The notes under the pieces: model-generated
Told to the model about the DNA's origin: nothing
Database searches by the model: none
Seen by the model: only the letters and a program-made list of their open reading frames with translations
Shown: piece after piece, positions 15,663-27,297 of the stretch
Numbering within the stretch: position 1 is the first letter of the stretch
Layout of the letters: each line of letters begins with the position of its first letter
Source of the DNA: a virus
Reading direction: 5' to 3' (one strand)
Virus record (IMG/VR): IMGVR_UViG_3300002835_000892
Location: 1-27,297 of that record
DNA: 27,297 nucleotides
Position numbers and translations under genes: made by a program

Positions 15663-15836
15663 TTATTTACTAAGTCTTTTTTGTTTCATAGGCCATTGAG
15701 GACTTTTCAGTCTCAATTTTGTATCAGCCTCCTTCATATAATTACCATTGATTGGATTAGGAGGTGCCACTTTAGGAGCTTTTCTTGGCTTACCAGATTT
15801 CTTAGCTTTGCCAGCTGTCATATTACTTACAGCCAT
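15663..15836 (-). CDS. 57-residue basic protein of unknown function
   Basis: The frame runs from the ATG at 15836 to TAA at 15663-15665. The protein begins MAVSNMTAGKAKKSGKPRKA and is strongly basic with a Pro-rich middle. It overlaps the preceding gene by 14 bases and is the last gene of the minus-strand unit, ending against the bidirectional terminator. It shares the Lys/Gly/Ala-rich style of its neighbours; function is unknown. Confidence 0.65.
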   Translation of the reverse strand: MAVSNMTAGKAKKSGKPRKAPKVAPPNPINGNYMKEADTKLRLKSPQWPMKQKRLSK

Positions 15837-16296
15837 ATTTACATTTCTTCATTTTACCACCACTCTTCATCATAGGTTCCATAGAAGCAGCCTCACCACC
15901 ATATTGCATTTTCTTTTTAGGAGCTTTACCAGCTTTCTTCATTGCAATAGCTACAGCAGCTTGTTTAGCCATCTTACCACCCATTTTCATCATAGTAGCT
16001 CCAGATTTAGCTGTCTTAGGAAGAACACCTTTACCAATAAGAATATCTTTTTGAGTAATCTTTCCATCTTTACTAAGATCAGGAAATGATCCACCAGATT
16101 TAGCTCTCTTAGGCATTAATTTATCTAAATTTTTTGTAACAAAATCTTGTCCTCGTTCTTTACGAGTATCTCGTTCTACCATACGTTTAGCTACATTTGT
16201 AGCTCTATCTGGATTTTTAGCTTCAAGTCTTCCAATACGTTTTAATTGACCAGATCTTAATGAAACTCCTGGTTTTGCTTTTTTCATCATTGCCAT
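15823..16296 (-). CDS. Lys/Gly-rich basic protein with KMGGK-type motifs
   Basis: This 157-residue protein is rich in Lys, Gly, Ala and Met, with repeated short motifs such as KSGGSF, KSGATMMKMGGKM, KMQYGGE and KSGGKMKK. One middle segment (SKDGKITQKDILIGKG) looks EF-hand-like (D-x-D-like with Gly). It ends with Cys-rich KCKYGCK. Proteins of this composition are common in phages of aquatic bacteria near structural genes. DNA-condensing or virion-internal roles are conceivable but unproven. Confidence 0.7.
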   Translation of the reverse strand: MAMMKKAKPGVSLRSGQLKRIGRLEAKNPDRATNVAKRMVERDTRKERGQDFVTKNLDKLMPKRAKSGGSFPDLSKDGKITQKDILIGKGVLPKTAKSGATMMKMGGKMAKQAAVAIAMKKAGKAPKKKMQYGGEAASMEPMMKSGGKMKKCKYGCK

Positions 16297-16308
16297 TATA
16301 TTAATTTT

Positions 16309-16446
16309 TTATTTAGATTTAGATTTTTTAACAGAATTATTAATTGCATTATTCTTTTTAGGAGCATATTTACCTACACCATCTTGTCTATCTAGAAGAT
16401 CAGCCATACGAATGTCTCCTTTAGTTTGAGGTTTACTCTTTGCCAT
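16309..16446 (-). CDS. 45-residue basic protein of unknown function
   Basis: The frame runs from the ATG at 16446 to TAA at 16309-16311. It begins MAKSKPQTKGDIRMADLLDR and ends with a Lys/Ser-rich tail. The start is preceded by the same A-rich context (AAAAACTAATATAATG) used by other genes here. Function is unknown. Confidence 0.6.
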   Translation of the reverse strand: MAKSKPQTKGDIRMADLLDRQDGVGKYAPKKNNAINNSVKKSKSK

Positions 16447-16464
16447 TATATTAGTTTTTAATTG

Positions 16465-16746
16465 TTAACAATTCCATTTACGTAAAGATTTATTAATTCT
16501 GCTATTTGGATCATTAGCTGTTTTAGCAGATGTTAATTTCTTTTTCATACCTGACATTCTACTACAAAATGACTTACGTCTACTTGCAGCTTTACTACCA
16601 GGTTTAAGTTTAGAGGGTTTAGTAGTGACAGCAGTCTTTAATTTACTACCAGGATTAGCTCTTCTATATGAAGCCACTCCCTTAGCGTTTAATCCTCCAG
16701 ACTTAGATTTACCTTCTTTTCTTTGCCATGCTGGACTTTTTGTCAT
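16465..16746 (-). CDS. 93-residue basic protein, DUF6321-like
   Basis: The N-terminal part SPAWQRKEGKSKSGGLNAKG followed by VASYRRANPGSKLKTAV matches a short conserved motif of many phage proteins that I recall as DUF6321 (name from memory). The remainder is basic with SGMKKKL and a Cys at the end. Function of the family is not known to me. It overlaps the upstream gene by 38 bases, the longest overlap in this block. Confidence 0.72.
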   Translation of the reverse strand: MTKSPAWQRKEGKSKSGGLNAKGVASYRRANPGSKLKTAVTTKPSKLKPGSKAASRRKSFCSRMSGMKKKLTSAKTANDPNSRINKSLRKWNC

Positions 16747-17146
16747 AATAGTCAGGATTATCTTTGTGCCATTTCCTTACAGAAGCAACACCTTGTTTAA
16801 CAGTTTTAGCTTTTGATTTCTTAGTGAGGTTAATCTTATCCCACTTTCCTGCAGAAGGACCAGCTGTGTGATCAACAACTATATCACCTTTATTACCAAT
16901 TCCTTTATCTACTTTCTTTTTAAACACTTTATGTGTTTGTCCCCCTACCTTTACAACACTTCCACCATTCTTTAATGTGCTTCCTTTAAAAGGTCCTTTC
17001 TTTTTAATAAGAGGACCATTAGGAACAGGTGTGATGGCTCCTTTGATAGCAGGAATAGTGTCACCACCATTTCTAAGAACACCTTTACCAACATAAGCTG
17101 TTGCTTTCTGTGGATTCCAAGGACCTGCTTTCTTAATATTTGCCAT
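16709..17146 (-). CDS. 145-residue basic Gly/Lys-rich protein
   Basis: The N-terminal half contains repeated NGG elements (VLRNGGDTIP, TLKNGGSVVKVGG) similar to motifs in neighbours. The C-terminal half has VDHTAGPSAGKWDKINLTKK and a VASVRKWHKDNPDYYDKK tail. The VASVRKWH tail resembles short C-terminal motifs of the same protein group. The protein is strongly basic and function is unknown. Its first base overlaps the last base of the upstream gene. Confidence 0.7.
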   Translation of the reverse strand: MANIKKAGPWNPQKATAYVGKGVLRNGGDTIPAIKGAITPVPNGPLIKKKGPFKGSTLKNGGSVVKVGGQTHKVFKKKVDKGIGNKGDIVVDHTAGPSAGKWDKINLTKKSKAKTVKQGVASVRKWHKDNPDYYDKKSSMAKKRR

Positions 17147-17313
17147 TATTTAGCTTTTCTTTTAGCAGCCATAGCTTTAAATGTAAGAGCTAAAGATTTA
17201 GCTCGGCCAGAACAACTTTTCTTTGTTATCGGAGTGCACTTACCCTTAGTTCCTCTTTTTTTAATAGAGGCTGTAGCTTTCTGTATCCAATTTTTATCCT
17301 TAGCCTTTGGCAT
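17146..17313 (-). CDS. 55-residue basic protein with conserved WIQKA motif
   Basis: The frame runs from the ATG at 17313 to TAA at 17146-17148. It contains KNWIQKATASIKKRGTKGKC, then TPITKKSCSGRAKSLALTFK. I have the impression this short basic protein is widespread in aquatic phages, but I do not know a function. The C-terminus is Lys/Ala-rich. It is coupled to the next gene by a one-base overlap. Confidence 0.7.
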   Translation of the reverse strand: MPKAKDKNWIQKATASIKKRGTKGKCTPITKKSCSGRAKSLALTFKAMAAKRKAK

Positions 17314-17315
17314 GA

Positions 17316-17720
17316 TTATTTCTTTTTCATCTTACCACCACCAGCTTGTTTTCTTTCAATTGCAGAAGCATCAAGTTCTTTATCTTTCTTTAATACAGCT
17401 TTACCTCTAGCACCAGCTATTGTACGTTCTTGTACTTTAGTCCAAGCACCTTTAGGATCTACAGGACCAACTCTTTTGGTAGATGCTTTAAGTCCAGATA
17501 GACTTCCACCATTTTGCATTTTCTTTTTACCTTTTTCCATTTTAGTTTTAGCTATTTGAAATTTAGATTTTAAAATATTTTGTTTTTCTTCAGATTTTTT
17601 TTTAAAATCTGATTGAGCTTTATTAAGAGAATCTCTTTTTAGTTGTATAGATTTGTAAAGAGAATCTGGACTACTCATACTAAGTTTTCCCCCACCTTGC
17701 ATTTTTTTAACTTTTTTCAT
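17316..17720 (-). CDS. 134-residue Lys-rich protein with KMQxGG motifs
   Basis: This protein begins MKKVKKMQGGGKLSMSS and has a second KKMQNGGSLSG in the middle and AGGGKMKKK at the end. Between these lies a long Lys/Gln/Ser helix with coiled-coil character (about residues 20-65). The recurring Lys-Met-Gln-x-Gly-Gly unit also occurs in the proteins at 15823 and 16709 in related form. It overlaps the upstream gene by 14 bases. Function is unknown. Confidence 0.72.
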   Translation of the reverse strand: MKKVKKMQGGGKLSMSSPDSLYKSIQLKRDSLNKAQSDFKKKSEEKQNILKSKFQIAKTKMEKGKKKMQNGGSLSGLKASTKRVGPVDPKGAWTKVQERTIAGARGKAVLKKDKELDASAIERKQAGGGKMKKK

Positions 17721-17914: not shown

Positions 17915-18538
17915 TTATATTGTAATATGTTTCCAAGTTTTACCTCTATGAATATCTTTTATAGAGTGATAACTCAATTTAAGTTTATCTGCTACCTGTT
18001 TAGGTAGAAGACTATTTGCTAGATGTTTCTTAATCTCAATGACCTGTTCTTCTGTAAGTTTAGCCATTTTATGATTAGAACCAATTTTCCAATTCTTTGA
18101 TAAGTTTTCTAAATGCTTAGCTCTATAAGTTTTATCTTTCCAGTTTTCTTTTTGAGATATAGATTTTTTAAACTTTACTGCCTCTGTTCTTTTGATACCA
18201 AGATTACTTCCAGCAATCTTAGCAATATTGTAATGTGGATCAAGATTATCTATATACTGTTGTTCAGTTTTTAGAATTTCATTAGTAGAACACTCACAAA
18301 CAATCTCAAATTTAAAGTTATCTTCTCCATGTTTATTAACTGCTCTAATTAGTTTAACACAAGTGTTTCTACCAGAACGTATATCATAAATATGAGTGTA
18401 ATATCTTTTTATTAAATTATTTGTACTGCCTATATAAAACTTACCATCAATGTTATTAGTAATTTTATAAACAACCCCTCCCTTTTTCTTTTCAGAGAAG
18501 TATTTTTGTTTACACTCATCACTAATAGCCAGTATCAT
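17915..18538 (-). CDS. GIY-YIG homing endonuclease
   Basis: This 207-residue protein has an N-terminal GIY-YIG nuclease domain: GVVYKITN (Tyr24), FYIGSTNNLIKRYYTH (Tyr35, Gly37 and Arg45), and the catalytic Glu92 in LKTEQQYID. Residues ~108-150 are basic and probably form the linker. The C-terminus (LTEEQVIEIKKHLANSLLPK and KLSYHSIKDIHRGKTWKHI) is a helix-turn-helix DNA-binding repeat typical of such homing enzymes. It stands alone between a small basic gene and a beta-rich gene, which fits a mobile gene that cleaves a phage genome lacking it and spreads by recombination. It overlaps the upstream small gene by four bases. Confidence 0.88.
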   Translation of the reverse strand: MILAISDECKQKYFSEKKKGGVVYKITNNIDGKFYIGSTNNLIKRYYTHIYDIRSGRNTCVKLIRAVNKHGEDNFKFEIVCECSTNEILKTEQQYIDNLDPHYNIAKIAGSNLGIKRTEAVKFKKSISQKENWKDKTYRAKHLENLSKNWKIGSNHKMAKLTEEQVIEIKKHLANSLLPKQVADKLKLSYHSIKDIHRGKTWKHITI

Positions 18539-19698: not shown

Positions 19699-19941
19699 TT
19701 ATCCTCCTATAGTGGTGGTGGTAGTAGTTGTAGGAGCTACAGTTGTAGTGGTTGTAGTAGTTGTAGGAGCCACTGTAGTAGTTGTGGTGGTGGTATAATT
19801 ACAACATTCGTATGCTGTAATTTCTTGCCAATTACCCACTTTAGGTTTATTTTTTCTAAGAATAAGAGACCCTGCTACCACTCTACCAGTTCCATCAAAT
19901 CTTACATACGCTTTTAAGCGTTGATTGTTACCATTTGCCAT
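19699..19941 (-). CDS. Thr-run protein 1 (TTTTTTTVAP repeats)
   Basis: This 80-residue protein has an N-terminal 50-residue domain (RLKAYVRFDGTGRVVAGSLI, GNWQEITAYECC) and then a tail of three Thr-runs of 7-8 residues separated by VAP, ending IGG. The repeat unit is 11 residues (33 bases). The Thr codons are mixed ACT, ACA and ACC. Such tails look mucin-like and are rich in potential O-glycosylation sites. A similar tail occurs in the protein at 21085. The glycosyltransferase gene 20029 lies directly upstream. Function is unknown; a virion-surface tail protein is an inference. Confidence 0.8.
   Translation of the reverse strand: MANGNNQRLKAYVRFDGTGRVVAGSLILRKNKPKVGNWQEITAYECCNYTTTTTTTVAPTTTTTTTTVAPTTTTTTTIGG
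19721..19770. repeat. 33-bp tandem repeat encoding Thr-run/VAP units
   Basis: The 17-mer GTAGTAGTTGTAGGAGC (plus-strand reading) occurs at 19721-19737 and 19754-19770, a 33-base period that matches the 11-residue protein repeat. A related TTGTAGGTGCTGCAGTTGTA element lies in the 21085 gene. This gives material for length variation by slippage or recombination. Confidence 0.7.
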
Positions 19942-19991: not shown

Positions 19992-20036
19992 TTAAGCAAG
20001 ACTTCTAGCAACCAGGGCTACAAAATCTTTATTCAT
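19992..20036 (-). CDS. Possible 14-residue ORF (leader-like or remnant)
   Basis: An ATG overlapping the glycosyltransferase stop (TATGAATAA) opens a 14-codon frame, MNKDFVALVARSLA, ending TAA at 19992-19994. It is within the 87-base gap before Thr-run protein 1. It may be a short peptide, the remnant of a decayed gene or chance. The translational overlap is the only support. Confidence 0.25.
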   Translation of the reverse strand: MNKDFVALVARSLA

Positions 20037-21054
20037 ATTTAAGGTTGTATTTCTTCTTTAATTCAAGAAGTTGTTGTAGATAATAATGATTGCAACGTTT
20101 TTTAGTTTCTTCATTATTATTAACTATTTCTAAATGAGGATCATCAAATGGATCTTTACCAGTGTGATATGTTCCTTTATAAAAAGCTGGATAACTTCCT
20201 CCCATAAATGGATCAGTTATTCCTGCATTATGTAATATAGTTGTTCTTTCAAGTTTCTCAATAGGATCAGAGCTCCAAGCAAATTCCATATCTGGAGTGT
20301 TTATTGTTTGTCCTCCTCTTTTCCAGATGTTCCAAAGAACAGCCCACATATCAGCACACCAACTTTGAAATCCTTTATTCTCATCTTGAAAGAACTCTTG
20401 ATTGATGTTTCTTAAGTGTGTACGGATAAGTAAACAACTTGTCATTACATCACTCCAGAATTGTTCATCTACATTCTTTAATAGATATTGAGCTCCTCCT
20501 GAATGTAAGTTATTAGCTTCTGCTATTTCTCTTGATATACCATTTATAGATGTAATCTCTTGTAGTATGTCTCTTTCTTTATAAGCTTCCAATTTATCTG
20601 GAAGAACATCTTTTATTTTACTATCAAAATATGAAGCATTAATATAACTGTTTGTATCTGATAGATAACTAACATCATCATCTATATACTTATCAACATT
20701 GAATTTCTCTGTAAAAACTATATCACTATCGCAATAGAATACAGCTTTATCTTTCATTTCAGGATGGTCTCTAAAATATCTCATTAGAACATAAGGTCTA
20801 ATGATTGGTATATAGATACCTAAAAGCCTACTCACTTTATCTACATCTTTATAGAAAACAAATTCTGTTTCTGGATATAGGTTAATAACTTGTTCCCATC
20901 TAGTATTCTTTTCTCTGAAGTCTGGGATGTATATTAATACAGTGGCTTTATCTGAGTGTCCAAGTTTTTTTAAACTTTCAAGCCATAAATGCACCTGCCA
21001 TGTGTAATAGGTGTCATCTGGTTGGGCACAAAGAAATCTAAGTTCTTTCTTCAT
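20029..21054 (-). CDS. Glycosyltransferase-like protein (GT-A, DSD motif)
   Basis: This 341-residue protein begins ELRFLCAQPDDTYYTWQVHL and has a metal-binding VFYCDSDIVF with Asp109-x-Asp111, matching the DxD of GT-A glycosyltransferases of the GT8-like or arabinosyl/galactosyltransferase type. A region with NNLHSGGAQYLL and FQSWCADMWAVLW could bind the acceptor, and HNAGITDPFMGGSY near the C-terminus resembles the late His-bearing motif of such enzymes. It would transfer a sugar from a nucleotide sugar. It lies between the two Thr-run proteins (19699 and 21085), which are candidate acceptors. Confidence 0.8.
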   Translation of the reverse strand: MKKELRFLCAQPDDTYYTWQVHLWLESLKKLGHSDKATVLIYIPDFREKNTRWEQVINLYPETEFVFYKDVDKVSRLLGIYIPIIRPYVLMRYFRDHPEMKDKAVFYCDSDIVFTEKFNVDKYIDDDVSYLSDTNSYINASYFDSKIKDVLPDKLEAYKERDILQEITSINGISREIAEANNLHSGGAQYLLKNVDEQFWSDVMTSCLLIRTHLRNINQEFFQDENKGFQSWCADMWAVLWNIWKRGGQTINTPDMEFAWSSDPIEKLERTTILHNAGITDPFMGGSYPAFYKGTYHTGKDPFDDPHLEIVNNNEETKKRCNHYYLQQLLELKKKYNLKYE

Positions 21055-21084: not shown

Positions 21085-21243
21085 TTAGAGAGTGGTAGTG
21101 GTTGTTGTTGTAGGTGCTGCAGTTGTAGTTGTTGTGGTAGTAAGATTAGCTGTCACTTTAATAAGCTGTTCTAATTGTTTACTGATTTGCCATAACAAAT
21201 TACTTTCTTGACTCCAACCTATTTGTCTGTTTGGAATTTTCAT
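21085..21243 (-). CDS. Thr-run protein 2 with shared N-terminal tag
   Basis: The frame runs from the ATG at 21243 to TAA at 21085-21087 (52 residues). Residues 1-34 start IPNRQIGWSQESNLLWQI and are close to the first 30 residues of the next-upstream GTSG protein. The rest is Thr7-Ala-Ala-Pro-Thr7-Leu. The protein is thus a short common tag plus a Thr-run tail. The tag is probably helical and could dock both proteins on the same virion partner. The stop codon lies in a small inverted repeat (CTCTCT...AGAGAG). Confidence 0.8.
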   Translation of the reverse strand: MKIPNRQIGWSQESNLLWQISKQLEQLIKVTANLTTTTTTTAAPTTTTTTTL

Positions 21244-21255
21244 TTTATTTATATT

Positions 21256-22269
21256 TTAATATATTTTATTTAATACAAAAACATCACTATATATATTGTT
21301 TCCTGTACTAGCAGCTCCCCATTGCACTGTTATATCTAATGTATTAGAAATTGTTGTGTTAAATGTTGTGTTGTTCGCTACATTAAATCCAAATCCTTGA
21401 ACAGAAGCATTGTTAGTTTTTGTATAATGGAAACTACCTAAAGATACAATTGATGCTACACCAGCAGCTCCTAATTGTCTAATTGTAAAGTCAATATTCA
21501 AAGACCACACATCATCTGTAACAGCACTTCCAAGATTTTGAACACCACTATCTAAAAGAATAACAGATCCTGATTTCACTTTAATTCTAATAGTTTGATT
21601 GTTATCAGCATTCATAACACCACCAAGAATTGCTCTAAAAGTGTCACCAACAGTAAAACCATTAGCAGGTACACTTAATGTACCAACTCCTGTACCAATA
21701 ATTGTTGTTTCAGCTGTTGTATTTGTAACAATGGTGCTATTAGCTGTTTGAGCATATAGTCCATAATTTACTGATATTGGAAGACTTGGAGACACACCAC
21801 TAGTTCCTGAACTACCAGAACTTCCACTAGTTCCATTAACTCCTGAAGTACCACTAGTTCCTGAAGAACCATCTCCACCAGCTGCTCCATCTAAGTTAAC
21901 AGTCCATAGTGAATATGTTCCACTTCCTGTAACTGTAACAGGAGAACCAATTACCATTACACCAGTGTTAATGTCATAACTTACAACAGTGCAAGTTTGA
22001 TGATTACCAACATTATATGTTATAATAATATCTTGAGCTGGTGTATAAGCCAATCCAGGTTCTACAACAATTGTTGTACTTACACCTAATGTAAATTCAG
22101 TAGTGGATGTAGTTCTATATCTATCTCCATCATATCCAGATGTACCAGAAGTTCCACTAGTACCCATAATATTACATGTAACACATGTAAGCTTCTCTAA
22201 TTGAGAAGCTACTTGCCATAGTAGATTAGATTCTTGGCTCCAGCCTATTTGTTTATTAGGTATACCCAT
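21256..22269 (-). CDS. Collagen-like GTSG-repeat protein, probable tail or fibre component
   Basis: This 337-residue protein starts with the tag IPNKQIGWSQESNLLWQVAS also seen in the gene at 21085. A Gly-Thr-Ser-Gly repeat follows (residues ~36-47), then a ~85-residue beta-rich domain with TTSTTEFTLGVSTTIVVEPG, a second Gly-Thr/Ser-Ser-Gly repeat (~133-155) and a ~180-residue beta-rich C-terminal domain ending SDVFVLNKIY. Collagen-like Gly-x-y stretches between globular domains are typical of trimeric phage fibres and decoration proteins. The C-terminal domain is a candidate receptor- or glycan-binding head. No transmembrane segment or secretion signal is seen. The position after the lysis-type genes and before a glycosyltransferase supports a virion-surface role. 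Confidence 0.78.
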   Translation of the reverse strand: MGIPNKQIGWSQESNLLWQVASQLEKLTCVTCNIMGTSGTSGTSGYDGDRYRTTSTTEFTLGVSTTIVVEPGLAYTPAQDIIITYNVGNHQTCTVVSYDINTGVMVIGSPVTVTGSGTYSLWTVNLDGAAGGDGSSGTSGTSGVNGTSGSSGSSGTSGVSPSLPISVNYGLYAQTANSTIVTNTTAETTIIGTGVGTLSVPANGFTVGDTFRAILGGVMNADNNQTIRIKVKSGSVILLDSGVQNLGSAVTDDVWSLNIDFTIRQLGAAGVASIVSLGSFHYTKTNNASVQGFGFNVANNTTFNTTISNTLDITVQWGAASTGNNIYSDVFVLNKIY

Positions 22270-22962: not shown

Positions 22963-23670
22963 TTAAATATTTTCTAAATATTTCCATTTAATAATGCTTT
23001 TAACTTTACCCTGACAATAAGACCTCAATTTGCCATAGCTTATCTTATTAATGTCTGACGCAATTCTAACATTATCGTAAACTTCTCCAGTCTCTATATT
23101 AATTACTTTTTTAGAGTTAGGATTATCTGAGCCATACCTAACAGAAACAATTCTGTTTTTAAAAGCATCAGATTCAATTAAAGACTTTTTTATTTTAAGT
23201 TTAATTTCTTCAGAATGTGTGCTACCTAATCTATTTTGTCTAAGTTTTGCTTTTGTTTCTTCAGAATGAGTCTTTCCATAAAATGGGTTTTTTTCTCCAA
23301 TCCTTAACTTAGCTAATTCAGATAAATTTTTACACATGGATTCTGGCAATGATTTTCCTTTCCAATATGGTATTTTATGCTTCCATCCTAAAGTGCCTTG
23401 ACCTCCATCAGTCCAATTAACAAGAGTACCACCACAAGTATCTATTCTACCATACATACTTATCATTTCTATTTCTTTTGTACATGCTTCGTCAAAAGAT
23501 AGGTTATCTAACATAATTTCAACTTTATACTCACAGTTTTTAATTACGTTATGCCAGTGCTTATTTCTGCTTTTTGTTTGGTATGCCCTAGAATAATTAG
23601 AATCTGTACCCAATCCAATATAGAAAGGTACATTTTTATCTAACCTAATATGCCTATAAACGTATGCCAT
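22963..23670 (-). CDS. GIY-YIG homing endonuclease with NUMOD motifs
   Basis: This 235-residue protein has an N-terminal GIY-YIG-like domain, YVYRHIRLDKNVPFYIGLG (Tyr5, Tyr17, Gly19), a basic stretch with SRAYQTKSRNKHWHN (Arg28) and Glu66 in TKEIEMI. The NUMOD3-type repeat GEKNPFYGKTHSEETKAKLR and its partial copy GSTHSEEIKLKIKK follow (125-165). A NUMOD1-like C-terminus with VINIETGEVYDNVRIASDIN closes the protein. These DNA-binding modules are typical of free-standing homing endonucleases. It sits inside the lysis cassette between the M15 peptidase and the holin-like gene, leaving those genes intact. Confidence 0.85.
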   Translation of the reverse strand: MAYVYRHIRLDKNVPFYIGLGTDSNYSRAYQTKSRNKHWHNVIKNCEYKVEIMLDNLSFDEACTKEIEMISMYGRIDTCGGTLVNWTDGGQGTLGWKHKIPYWKGKSLPESMCKNLSELAKLRIGEKNPFYGKTHSEETKAKLRQNRLGSTHSEEIKLKIKKSLIESDAFKNRIVSVRYGSDNPNSKKVINIETGEVYDNVRIASDINKISYGKLRSYCQGKVKSIIKWKYLENI

Positions 23671-25369: not shown

Positions 25370-27297
25370 ATGTCATCTAATATAAAATTTGAAAAAGCAT
25401 ATGTATTATATGCAAATGCATCTTATTTTGATACAGTGTTATCGTGTGTACAATCTATAAAAACATTTAGTGATGTTCCTATTATTGTTTACATGCTTAA
25501 TTCTAAGTTAAAGGTTGATGGAGCTATTACAATAAATTGGGAATGTGATGTAGATGTCATTCATAAACAGAAATATATAGATAGAAAGGATGATAAAGTG
25601 TATAAGCTGTTGATACAACGTCCACTTATTGTTAGAGATGCTCTATTGAATTATGCCACCTCTGTAGCTTATATAGATGCAGATAGTGTAGCTACAAAAT
25701 ATGTAGACAATATATTTACAATGTTTGATAATGATTCTACTCATCCCTATTTTGTAGAAGGTGTGTATGAATATCTACTTAGTGGAGGAAGAGGAGGAGC
25801 AGAGAGTAGAGAAGACTTATCAACAACATTAGAGCATCCAGCATGCATGTTGTTTAACGTTAACCAATATGTAAGACAGAAATATAGACAAACTGGTTAT
25901 TTTGTATCTGGACAGAATTGTATAGAGTTTTTAAATGAGTGGTATGAGATGTGCATTCATCCAGAAGTGTTGGCTAATCCTTCACATTATGCCCCCTATC
26001 ACGAAGAAACTATTGTTAATGTTTTATTATGGAAGATGAATATACATGTAGGTCTTCCATACATCTATGTAAATGGATCATATGATACTATCAATGAAGT
26101 GTATGACACTTTTGGCTTCACTGGTAAAGATAATCATATTAGAGAATGGGTGAAGATTCCTAAGACTAAATCAAATTTATTATTCTTTCATGGAGAAAAA
26201 AATGGTACAATCATGAATAAAATGATAGCTAAACTAAATAGTAAATTAAAAATATTATTTCTAGCACCTCACTTATCTACAGGAGGAATGCCAGCATTCT
26301 TATTGAAAAGAATAGAAGCTTTACAAACCTCTGGTGATGTTGATATATTTGTTGTAGAATATCAATGTTATGGTATTGAGTATGTTGTTCAGAGAAATCA
26401 AATAATGAATATCGTGAATCCAAACTTCCGTACACTATGGGAGAATAAAATGGAACTATTTGATTTCATAAATGATTGGAAACCTGATGTCATCCATATA
26501 GATGAAATGTCTGAAAGACTGAATAGGGAAATGATTGTATCATTATACAATCCAAACAGATCATATCGTATCATTGAAACTTGTCATGATGTATCATTTA
26601 ATCCAAATGATAAAATATTTCATCCAGATGCATATGCTTTCTGCACACCATATCACTTAAAGACATTCAATAACACAGATTCTTATAAGCAAGTGATTGA
26701 GTTTCCAATAGAGGATTTGAAGAATAAAAAATGTATATGGGATGAAGCTATGTTTGATCTTGGATTTGATTTCTCAAAAGAACATGTTGTAAATGTTGGA
26801 CTATGGACTTCAGGAAAGAATCAGAAAGAAGCTGTTGAACTAGCAAGACAAATGCCTGATGTACAGTTTCATTTTGTAGGAAACATGGCTCCTAACTTTA
26901 GAGAATATTGGTATCCAATAATATTAGATCTTCCAGATAATTGTAAAATATGGGGAGAACGTGACGATGTTTATAAATTCTTAATGGCTTCAGATGTATT
27001 TATGTTTAATAGCACTTGGGAATGTAATCCTTTAGTTATTAGAGAAGCTATTGGTCATGAGTGTAAAATCTTAGCAAGAAACCTACCACAATATTGTGGA
27101 ATGTTTGATGAATACATTACACCAATAGGTGATAACTTAAAAGAACAATTAGAAGAAGCTTTAGAACAACCTGTTACATACACTGTTCCTGCTGATGGAT
27201 TTATAAATTTTAGAGATGATCATGTTGCTTTATATAAACAAGTGAGTATGAATGATGTCAAAATGAGTGCTGTATCCATCGTTCATCATTTTGTTAA
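25370..27297 (+). CDS. Two-domain glycosyltransferase (partial, runs past the window end)
   Basis: The frame is open from ATG 25370 to the last base, giving 642 codons without a stop. The N-terminal domain (about 1-290) has FEKAYVLYANASYFDTVLSC as a first strand and AYIDADSVATKYV with Asp103-x-Asp105 as the metal-binding DxD of a GT-A (GT8-like) transferase. The C-terminal domain (from ~294) starts ILFLAPHLSTGGMPAFLLKR and has VVNVGLWTSGKNQKEAVELA. It carries the EX7E motif of GT4-type GT-B enzymes in STWECNPLVIREAIGHE (Glu551, Glu559). Both domains appear to have their catalytic motifs, so the protein may add two sugars in sequence. It starts the next plus-strand unit. Acceptors are unknown. 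Confidence 0.88.
   Translation, partial: MSSNIKFEKAYVLYANASYFDTVLSCVQSIKTFSDVPIIVYMLNSKLKVDGAITINWECDVDVIHKQKYIDRKDDKVYKLLIQRPLIVRDALLNYATSVAYIDADSVATKYVDNIFTMFDNDSTHPYFVEGVYEYLLSGGRGGAESREDLSTTLEHPACMLFNVNQYVRQKYRQTGYFVSGQNCIEFLNEWYEMCIHPEVLANPSHYAPYHEETIVNVLLWKMNIHVGLPYIYVNGSYDTINEVYDTFGFTGKDNHIREWVKIPKTKSNLLFFHGEKNGTIMNKMIAKLNSKLKILFLAPHLSTGGMPAFLLKRIEALQTSGDVDIFVVEYQCYGIEYVVQRNQIMNIVNPNFRTLWENKMELFDFINDWKPDVIHIDEMSERLNREMIVSLYNPNRSYRIIETCHDVSFNPNDKIFHPDAYAFCTPYHLKTFNNTDSYKQVIEFPIEDLKNKKCIWDEAMFDLGFDFSKEHVVNVGLWTSGKNQKEAVELARQMPDVQFHFVGNMAPNFREYWYPIILDLPDNCKIWGERDDVYKFLMASDVFMFNSTWECNPLVIREAIGHECKILARNLPQYCGMFDEYITPIGDNLKEQLEEALEQPVTYTVPADGFINFRDDHVALYKQVSMNDVKMSAVSIVHHFV

Follow-up and report, generated by a model that had tools for sequence, protein, structure and literature searches.

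The tagged gene cassette

We analysed a window of 27,297 bases from a freshwater phage, a complete IMG/VR virus record that is itself a fragment. The neighbouring genes, which include RIIA-like, UvsX-like, ribonucleotide reductase, M15 peptidase/endolysin and homing endonuclease genes, are of the type found in large tailed phages. The cassette includes two adjacent ORFs, both on the minus strand, a detail missing from the first-pass annotation. They encode a fibre-like protein of 337 aa (21256-22269) and a protein of 52 aa (21085-21243). Their N-termini had been described as nearly identical, and BLASTP confirmed this: residues 1-34 of the longer protein (22168-22269) and of the shorter one (21142-21243) align without gaps, with 24/34 identical (71%) and 29/34 similar residues (E = 3e-17). 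This segment, here called tag A, is short as originally proposed, with a length nearer 34 residues than 30. The remainders of the two proteins differ, also as claimed. Tag A of the 52-aa protein is followed solely by T7-AAP-T7-L, whose Thr tail T7-AAP-T7 (21091-21141, minus strand) is a candidate glycan acceptor, while in the 337-aa protein it is followed by GTSG stretches, a beta segment, a collagen-like stretch and a distal domain predicted to be a beta-sandwich.

A predicted GT-A-fold glycosyltransferase (GT) of 341 aa, belonging to phrog_4417 and carrying a DxD motif at D109/D111 (20029-21054, minus strand), lies between this Thr protein and a second one of 80 aa (19699-19941, minus strand); the first-pass annotation had overlooked this enzyme. 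The 80-aa protein begins with a different tag, tag B (LKAYVRFDGTGRVVAGSLILRKNKPKVGNWQEITAYECCN), and ends in T7-VAP-T8-VAP-T7-IGG, whose Thr tail (19711-19794, minus strand) is again a putative glycan acceptor. On the plus strand, an open-ended 642-aa frame (25370-27295) encodes a multi-domain glycosyltransferase with a GT4-type domain, and this enzyme is a candidate glycan builder.

Upstream, the cassette often has a lysis-type gene as its neighbour (M15 peptidase, lysozyme-like or GH19-like). Homing-endonuclease-like genes flank the cassette, one with a NUMOD3 motif (22963-23670, minus strand) and one with a GIY-YIG domain (17915-18538, minus strand). Genes of this type are present in 24 loci, where their position varies, and they may be drivers of tag and tail exchange. 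Downstream of the cassette there is a row of small, very Lys-rich ORFs of the MKSGGKMKK type (15823-17720, minus strand).

Tag families and exchangeable bodies

Only two copies of tag A are present in this 27,297-base record. Searching relatives recovered many further tag-bearing proteins, in 64 IMG/VR stretches with a degenerate pattern and in 192 with a profile-guided scan. The suggestion that a family of tagged proteins may exist was thus borne out by the relatives, but not the idea that its members are spread across the genome: the copies adjoin one another in a single cassette, as a rule two or three per genome. Of the 31 records from which the loci were taken, 26 have tag A, usually as 2 or 3 copies. 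A count of tag ORFs in 84 non-redundant loci gave two in 57, three in 14 and four in one, so that about 71-72 loci have at least two. Longer fibre-like proteins come first in the cassette, and the last tag gene in most loci has the form of the 52-aa protein, encoding ~45-57 aa with a tag and a Thr run (T7-9).

Tag A is conserved in over 80 non-redundant virus loci, so its similarity goes far beyond chance. In the alignment, G9 and L16 are invariant and I8, W10 and L17 near-invariant. The conserved segment IPxxQIGWSxESN precedes a short heptad helix, in which residues 17, 20, 24 and 27 are 98-100% hydrophobic. The natural reading of this pattern is a plug in extended form that leads into a short coiled coil. 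A hydrophobic signal-peptide core was not found in tag A. Neither tag A nor tag B matched any INPHARED phage by tblastn, and tag A had no relative in GTDB genomes; it therefore looks virus-restricted, and we dropped an explanation by a host gene. Tags are more similar within a locus than between loci (0.643 vs 0.588, p 0.001), which fits both a shared partner and local gene conversion.

We identified at least three tag families, A, B and C, of which B and C had been missed previously. The tag-B family was found in 69/84 loci, mostly just downstream of the GT. Tag C, M[AP]TFIKxGFW...GYKGWLNLD, was found in 36 non-redundant loci, every one of which also has tag A and the GT. With the Thr-only forms set aside, the sequences that follow tags A and B gave 58 clusters of bodies, six of them common to both tags. 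Cluster representatives matched BspA-type LRR, Fib_succ_major, Laminin_G_3, Peptidase_S74, collagen and lectin-type families in Pfam and PHROG, as well as PHROG virion, tail-fibre or baseplate families. The proposal of a docking tag with exchangeable displayed tails therefore stands in so far as a short N-terminal module is joined to dozens of unrelated bodies, some of them shared between tags.

The body of the 337-aa protein is an example. Its collagen-like stretch spans residues 128-159 (residues 128-158 matched Pfam PF01391 with E 3.4e-4 and 20.7 bits, below the 27.2-bit cut-off), and the protein matched PHROG 1806, 'collagen like minor tail', weakly (E 0.008). The distal domain (residues 161-337) is common to hundreds of viral loci, and the N-terminus that precedes it may be tag A, tag C or another one. 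The AlphaFold2 model was confident in this domain only, with pLDDT under 50 for 161 residues, and we consequently make no claim on the manner in which the tag docks. Comparison of the domain with a legume-lectin-like chain gave a VIA Z of 8.9 (rmsd 3.8, 147 residues), which is near the level common without kinship, and the best Foldseek match had E 9.5e-4; we regarded both as too weak for identification as a lectin.

The glycosyltransferase and the threonine tails

The GT of the window matched phrog_4417, a PHROG of unknown function, over residues 6-330 of 341 (profile positions 2-289 of 293, E 3.5e-50). A profile search against PDB sequences gave no match, so a fold search was used. The AlphaFold2 model (pLDDT 94.9, pTM 0.92) matched solved folds in the PDB (Foldseek E 6e-6, prob 1.0), the closest being glycogenin, LgtC, UGGT and GlyE at Z 13-14.6. 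The individual VIA Z scores were 14.6 for glycogenin (rmsd 3.9 over 232 residues), 14.2 for LgtC and 13.1 for GlyE. All of 51 relatives have D109 and D111, and the DxD motif is likewise invariant in a 24-sequence alignment that goes down to ~20% identity and reaches Bacillota phages. Because of the model, the matches to solved folds and the invariant DxD, this protein is very likely a GT-A-fold glycosyltransferase (GT8/GT6-like). The PDB match bears on the fold, while the acceptor is suggested by co-occurrence.

A GT relative is present in 76/84 tag loci and is the next gene after the last tag gene in 61/84. Fused poly-glycosyltransferases like that at 25370-27295 occur in a similar position in 25/84 loci, divergently transcribed near the cassette. 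These relatives combine GT4 and GT9 domains, sometimes with a methyltransferase (e.g. L185:4429-7875:- and L164:2926-5928:-), and the GT4-type multi-domain enzymes are putative glycan builders. In INPHARED, GT relatives at 23-34% identity were found in 74 records, with Enterococcus, Lactobacillus, Lactococcus, Staphylococcus, Arcanobacterium and Chryseobacterium as hosts. Mycobacteriophages were absent among the organisms of these 74 records, which were matched at E 1e-3.

The Thr runs of the tag loci are encoded by a mixture of ACT, ACA and ACC, and adjacent identical Thr codons are as frequent as expected from random draws (0.345 observed vs 0.348 expected). Exactly seven Thr were found in 191/335 runs of four or more (tags A and B). 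The mixed codons rule out an origin by slippage or as microsatellite DNA, and together with the fixed modal length they indicate that the runs are kept as protein. The runs often occur in T7-x-A-P units, and their length has a sharp mode at seven. In some proteins they link the tag to the body. Of the 169 Thr-run ORFs at tag loci, 159 carry tag A or B, a biased figure because a tag or the distal domain had served to find these loci.

Outside the tag loci, a Thr run or Thr-rich repeat tail was found near the GT in all 15 INPHARED phages read, and many of these tails are on named capsid or tail proteins. In phiFL1A, for example, the major tail protein has one, in 4995_1 the major capsid protein, and in Lactococcus phage 1706 both the capsid/protease and the major structural protein; proteins of R3.3 have them too. 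The weakest cases among the 15 are 9183 (TTTDPVTTTSTTRQ, 3.2 kb from the GT), 521B (TTVAP repeats) and LP65 (TETQT repeats). Staphylococcus phage PMBT8 was considered as an exception and rejected: its annotated tail-protein gene (L227:5624-5941, plus strand) apparently covers only the C-terminal part of the gene, and the C-terminus has 16 consecutive Thr (T16) near its end. In Chryseobacterium phage MA9V-3, the Thr-run protein next to the GT had no relative when used as a query.

We also gathered 74 loci by GT similarity only (55 from GTDB and 19 from IMG/VR) and scored an ORF as Thr-rich if a stretch of 15 residues contained 8 Thr or more. Thr-rich ORFs made up 72/593 of those within 3 kb of the GT vs 2/348 of those farther away, and at least one was present in 46/74 loci. 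Capsid and tail proteins of several prophages have matching Thr tails at their ends.

As a control, homologues were collected by structural gene and not by GT, and a GT was then sought within ~1.5 kb of flank at each locus. Tail-protein homologues from one order (397 genomes) had a Thr tail in 5/5 cases adjacent to a GT vs 0/25 without one (p = 7e-6), the tailless group including tail proteins 58-65% identical to the query. Capsid homologues from another order (395 genomes) had the tail in 4/4 cases with a GT vs 0/14 without (p = 3e-4). The match is complete (9/9 with a GT and 0/39 without, pooled), although the p-values overstate independence because each set includes its own query and the genomes are related. 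The coupling could be due partly to joint inheritance of neighbouring genes. The Thr run is not an ordinary exchangeable tail, as the first-pass annotation had supposed; it is tied to the neighbouring GT even in phages without tags.

Not every GT relative has a Thr run close to it. None was found in the flanking 6 kb of four viral relatives of the MA9V-3 type (L291, L292, L293 and L303), and the acceptor of these enzymes, if any, is a different one. Thr runs were also absent at Bacteroidota chromosomal loci of the GT-only sample. The GT family is thus broader than this use and need not always act on Thr tails. On a number of Bacteroidota chromosomes (Sphingobacterium, Pedobacter and Chitinophaga; GTDB loci L239, L242-L246, L248, L252, L254 and L262) the GT relatives are longer, with open frames of ~500 aa. 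Encoded beside them are short peptides that have GG-type motifs and ends rich in Thr or Cys, and at some loci an ABC transporter; the peptides are perhaps glycosylated and secreted.

A proposed system of surface display and glycosylation

Judged from the genes and their arrangement, exchangeable docking tags would display fibre tips together with Thr tails that are O-glycosylated by the phage, a reading to which we assign a probability of about three in four. The locus would be a phage surface-display cassette in which a short N-terminal tag plugs each of two or three proteins into a fixed site on the virion. The heptad helix that follows IPxxQIGWSxESN may let fibres oligomerise. Long tag proteins would be fibres or binding tips and the short ones Thr-run acceptors, with the phrog_4417 GT attaching a sugar to the threonines and the divergent multi-domain glycosyltransferase (25370-27295) perhaps extending that sugar. 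The outcome would be a virion with sugar-coated, mucin-like tails beside receptor-binding fibres, and its benefit may be shielding, adhesion or stability.

Alternatively, the tags may be docking tags while the Thr runs are flexible, unmodified spacers or tails and the GT acts elsewhere, on DNA bases or a host surface glycan. Runs that join tag to body would suit a spacer, DNA modification is common among phage GTs (PMC12619734), and the GT relatives that lack a nearby Thr run also fit. Yet a plain spacer offers no reason why GT and Thr tails should adjoin in unrelated phages, or why the tail should track the GT on homologous tail and capsid proteins in 9/9 vs 0/39 cases, and we consider this explanation unlikely. 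We give similarly little credence to the tag being an assembly, chaperone-binding or export signal for proteins that act elsewhere, e.g. on the host envelope at lysis. The cassette does adjoin a peptidase/endolysin gene, and the frequency of lysis-type genes upstream points the same way; against it, the bodies (S74 chaperone, collagen-like, lectin-type, PHROG tail-fibre, baseplate and virion structural) are the usual make-up of phage fibres, and the tag lacks the hydrophobic core of a signal peptide. That the shared N-terminus merely reflects a recent tandem duplication with diverged C-termini, with no docking or display and a degenerate Thr run, is highly improbable. In its favour, the copies adjoin each other and tags are more alike within a locus, but the tag is conserved while dozens of phages have unrelated bodies that have moved between tag families, and mixed codons with a fixed modal length argue that the Thr runs are kept as protein.

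Glycosylation of the virion by the phage would have a precedent. For the mycobacteriophages Che8 and Rita (Freeman et al. 2023, doi 10.1016/j.chom.2023.05.028, as described in PMC12619734 and PMC11256854), glycans are reported at the C-termini of capsid and tail-tube subunits. Phage-encoded GTs are a common feature, and the Thr tails of Bacillota phages are at the same C-terminal places as described there; here the GT is found together with capsid and tail proteins that have C-terminal Thr tails, and these are candidates for modification. In contrast to the mycobacteriophage systems, the proposed acceptor here is a recognisable poly-Thr tail, which in the group of the window is on dedicated, exchangeable tag proteins, and the hosts are mainly Bacillota and Bacteroidota. 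The enzyme here belongs to the phrog_4417 family, possibly distinct from the mycobacteriophage enzymes.

Like the GT8-like protein glycosyltransferases glycogenin and GlyE of Streptococcus pneumoniae, the window GT has a predicted GT-A fold and a DxD motif, but it shares only 8-12% identity with them and is encoded by a phage. The tagged proteins resemble modular phage tail fibres in their short conserved N-terminus, collagen-like shafts and S74 and lectin-type distal domains. They differ in that the anchor is just ~34 residues and is common to two or three adjacent genes per genome, one tag gene consists of anchor and Thr tail only, and bodies are exchanged among three unrelated tags. As in eukaryotic mucin-type Thr/Pro repeats, the Thr tails have Thr-rich units with Ala/Val-Pro spacers, and they are likewise likely acceptors of dense O-glycans. 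The likeness is one of appearance only, as the T7 runs are very regular, viral and made in bacteria.

In the open-access papers searched we found no report of a poly-Thr acceptor or tails on phage virion proteins, a role for phrog_4417, or the tags, a scope that falls short of proving novelty. Glycosylation of phage virions is already known, while the poly-Thr acceptor, the role of phrog_4417 and the tags are apparently new. We think it probable that they belong to a general, undescribed form of phage virion O-glycosylation, in which phrog_4417 GTs would decorate poly-Thr tails that Bacillota and Bacteroidota phages place on their major capsid proteins, their tail proteins and dedicated tag proteins, and in which a large freshwater group would use three interchangeable docking-tag families of ~35-50 residues to carry both tails and receptor-binding tips.

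If this is true, a function would be assigned to a PHROG of unknown function, and the ~34-residue tag would be a natural, minimal display anchor. A Thr tail beside a phrog_4417 GT would be a readable signature of sugar-coated phage particles. It would predict, without proteomics, glycosylated virions in sequenced phages of Lactococcus, Lactobacillus, Enterococcus and Staphylococcus and in a widespread uncultured group, and the use of glycans by phages for shielding, adhesion or stability would become testable.
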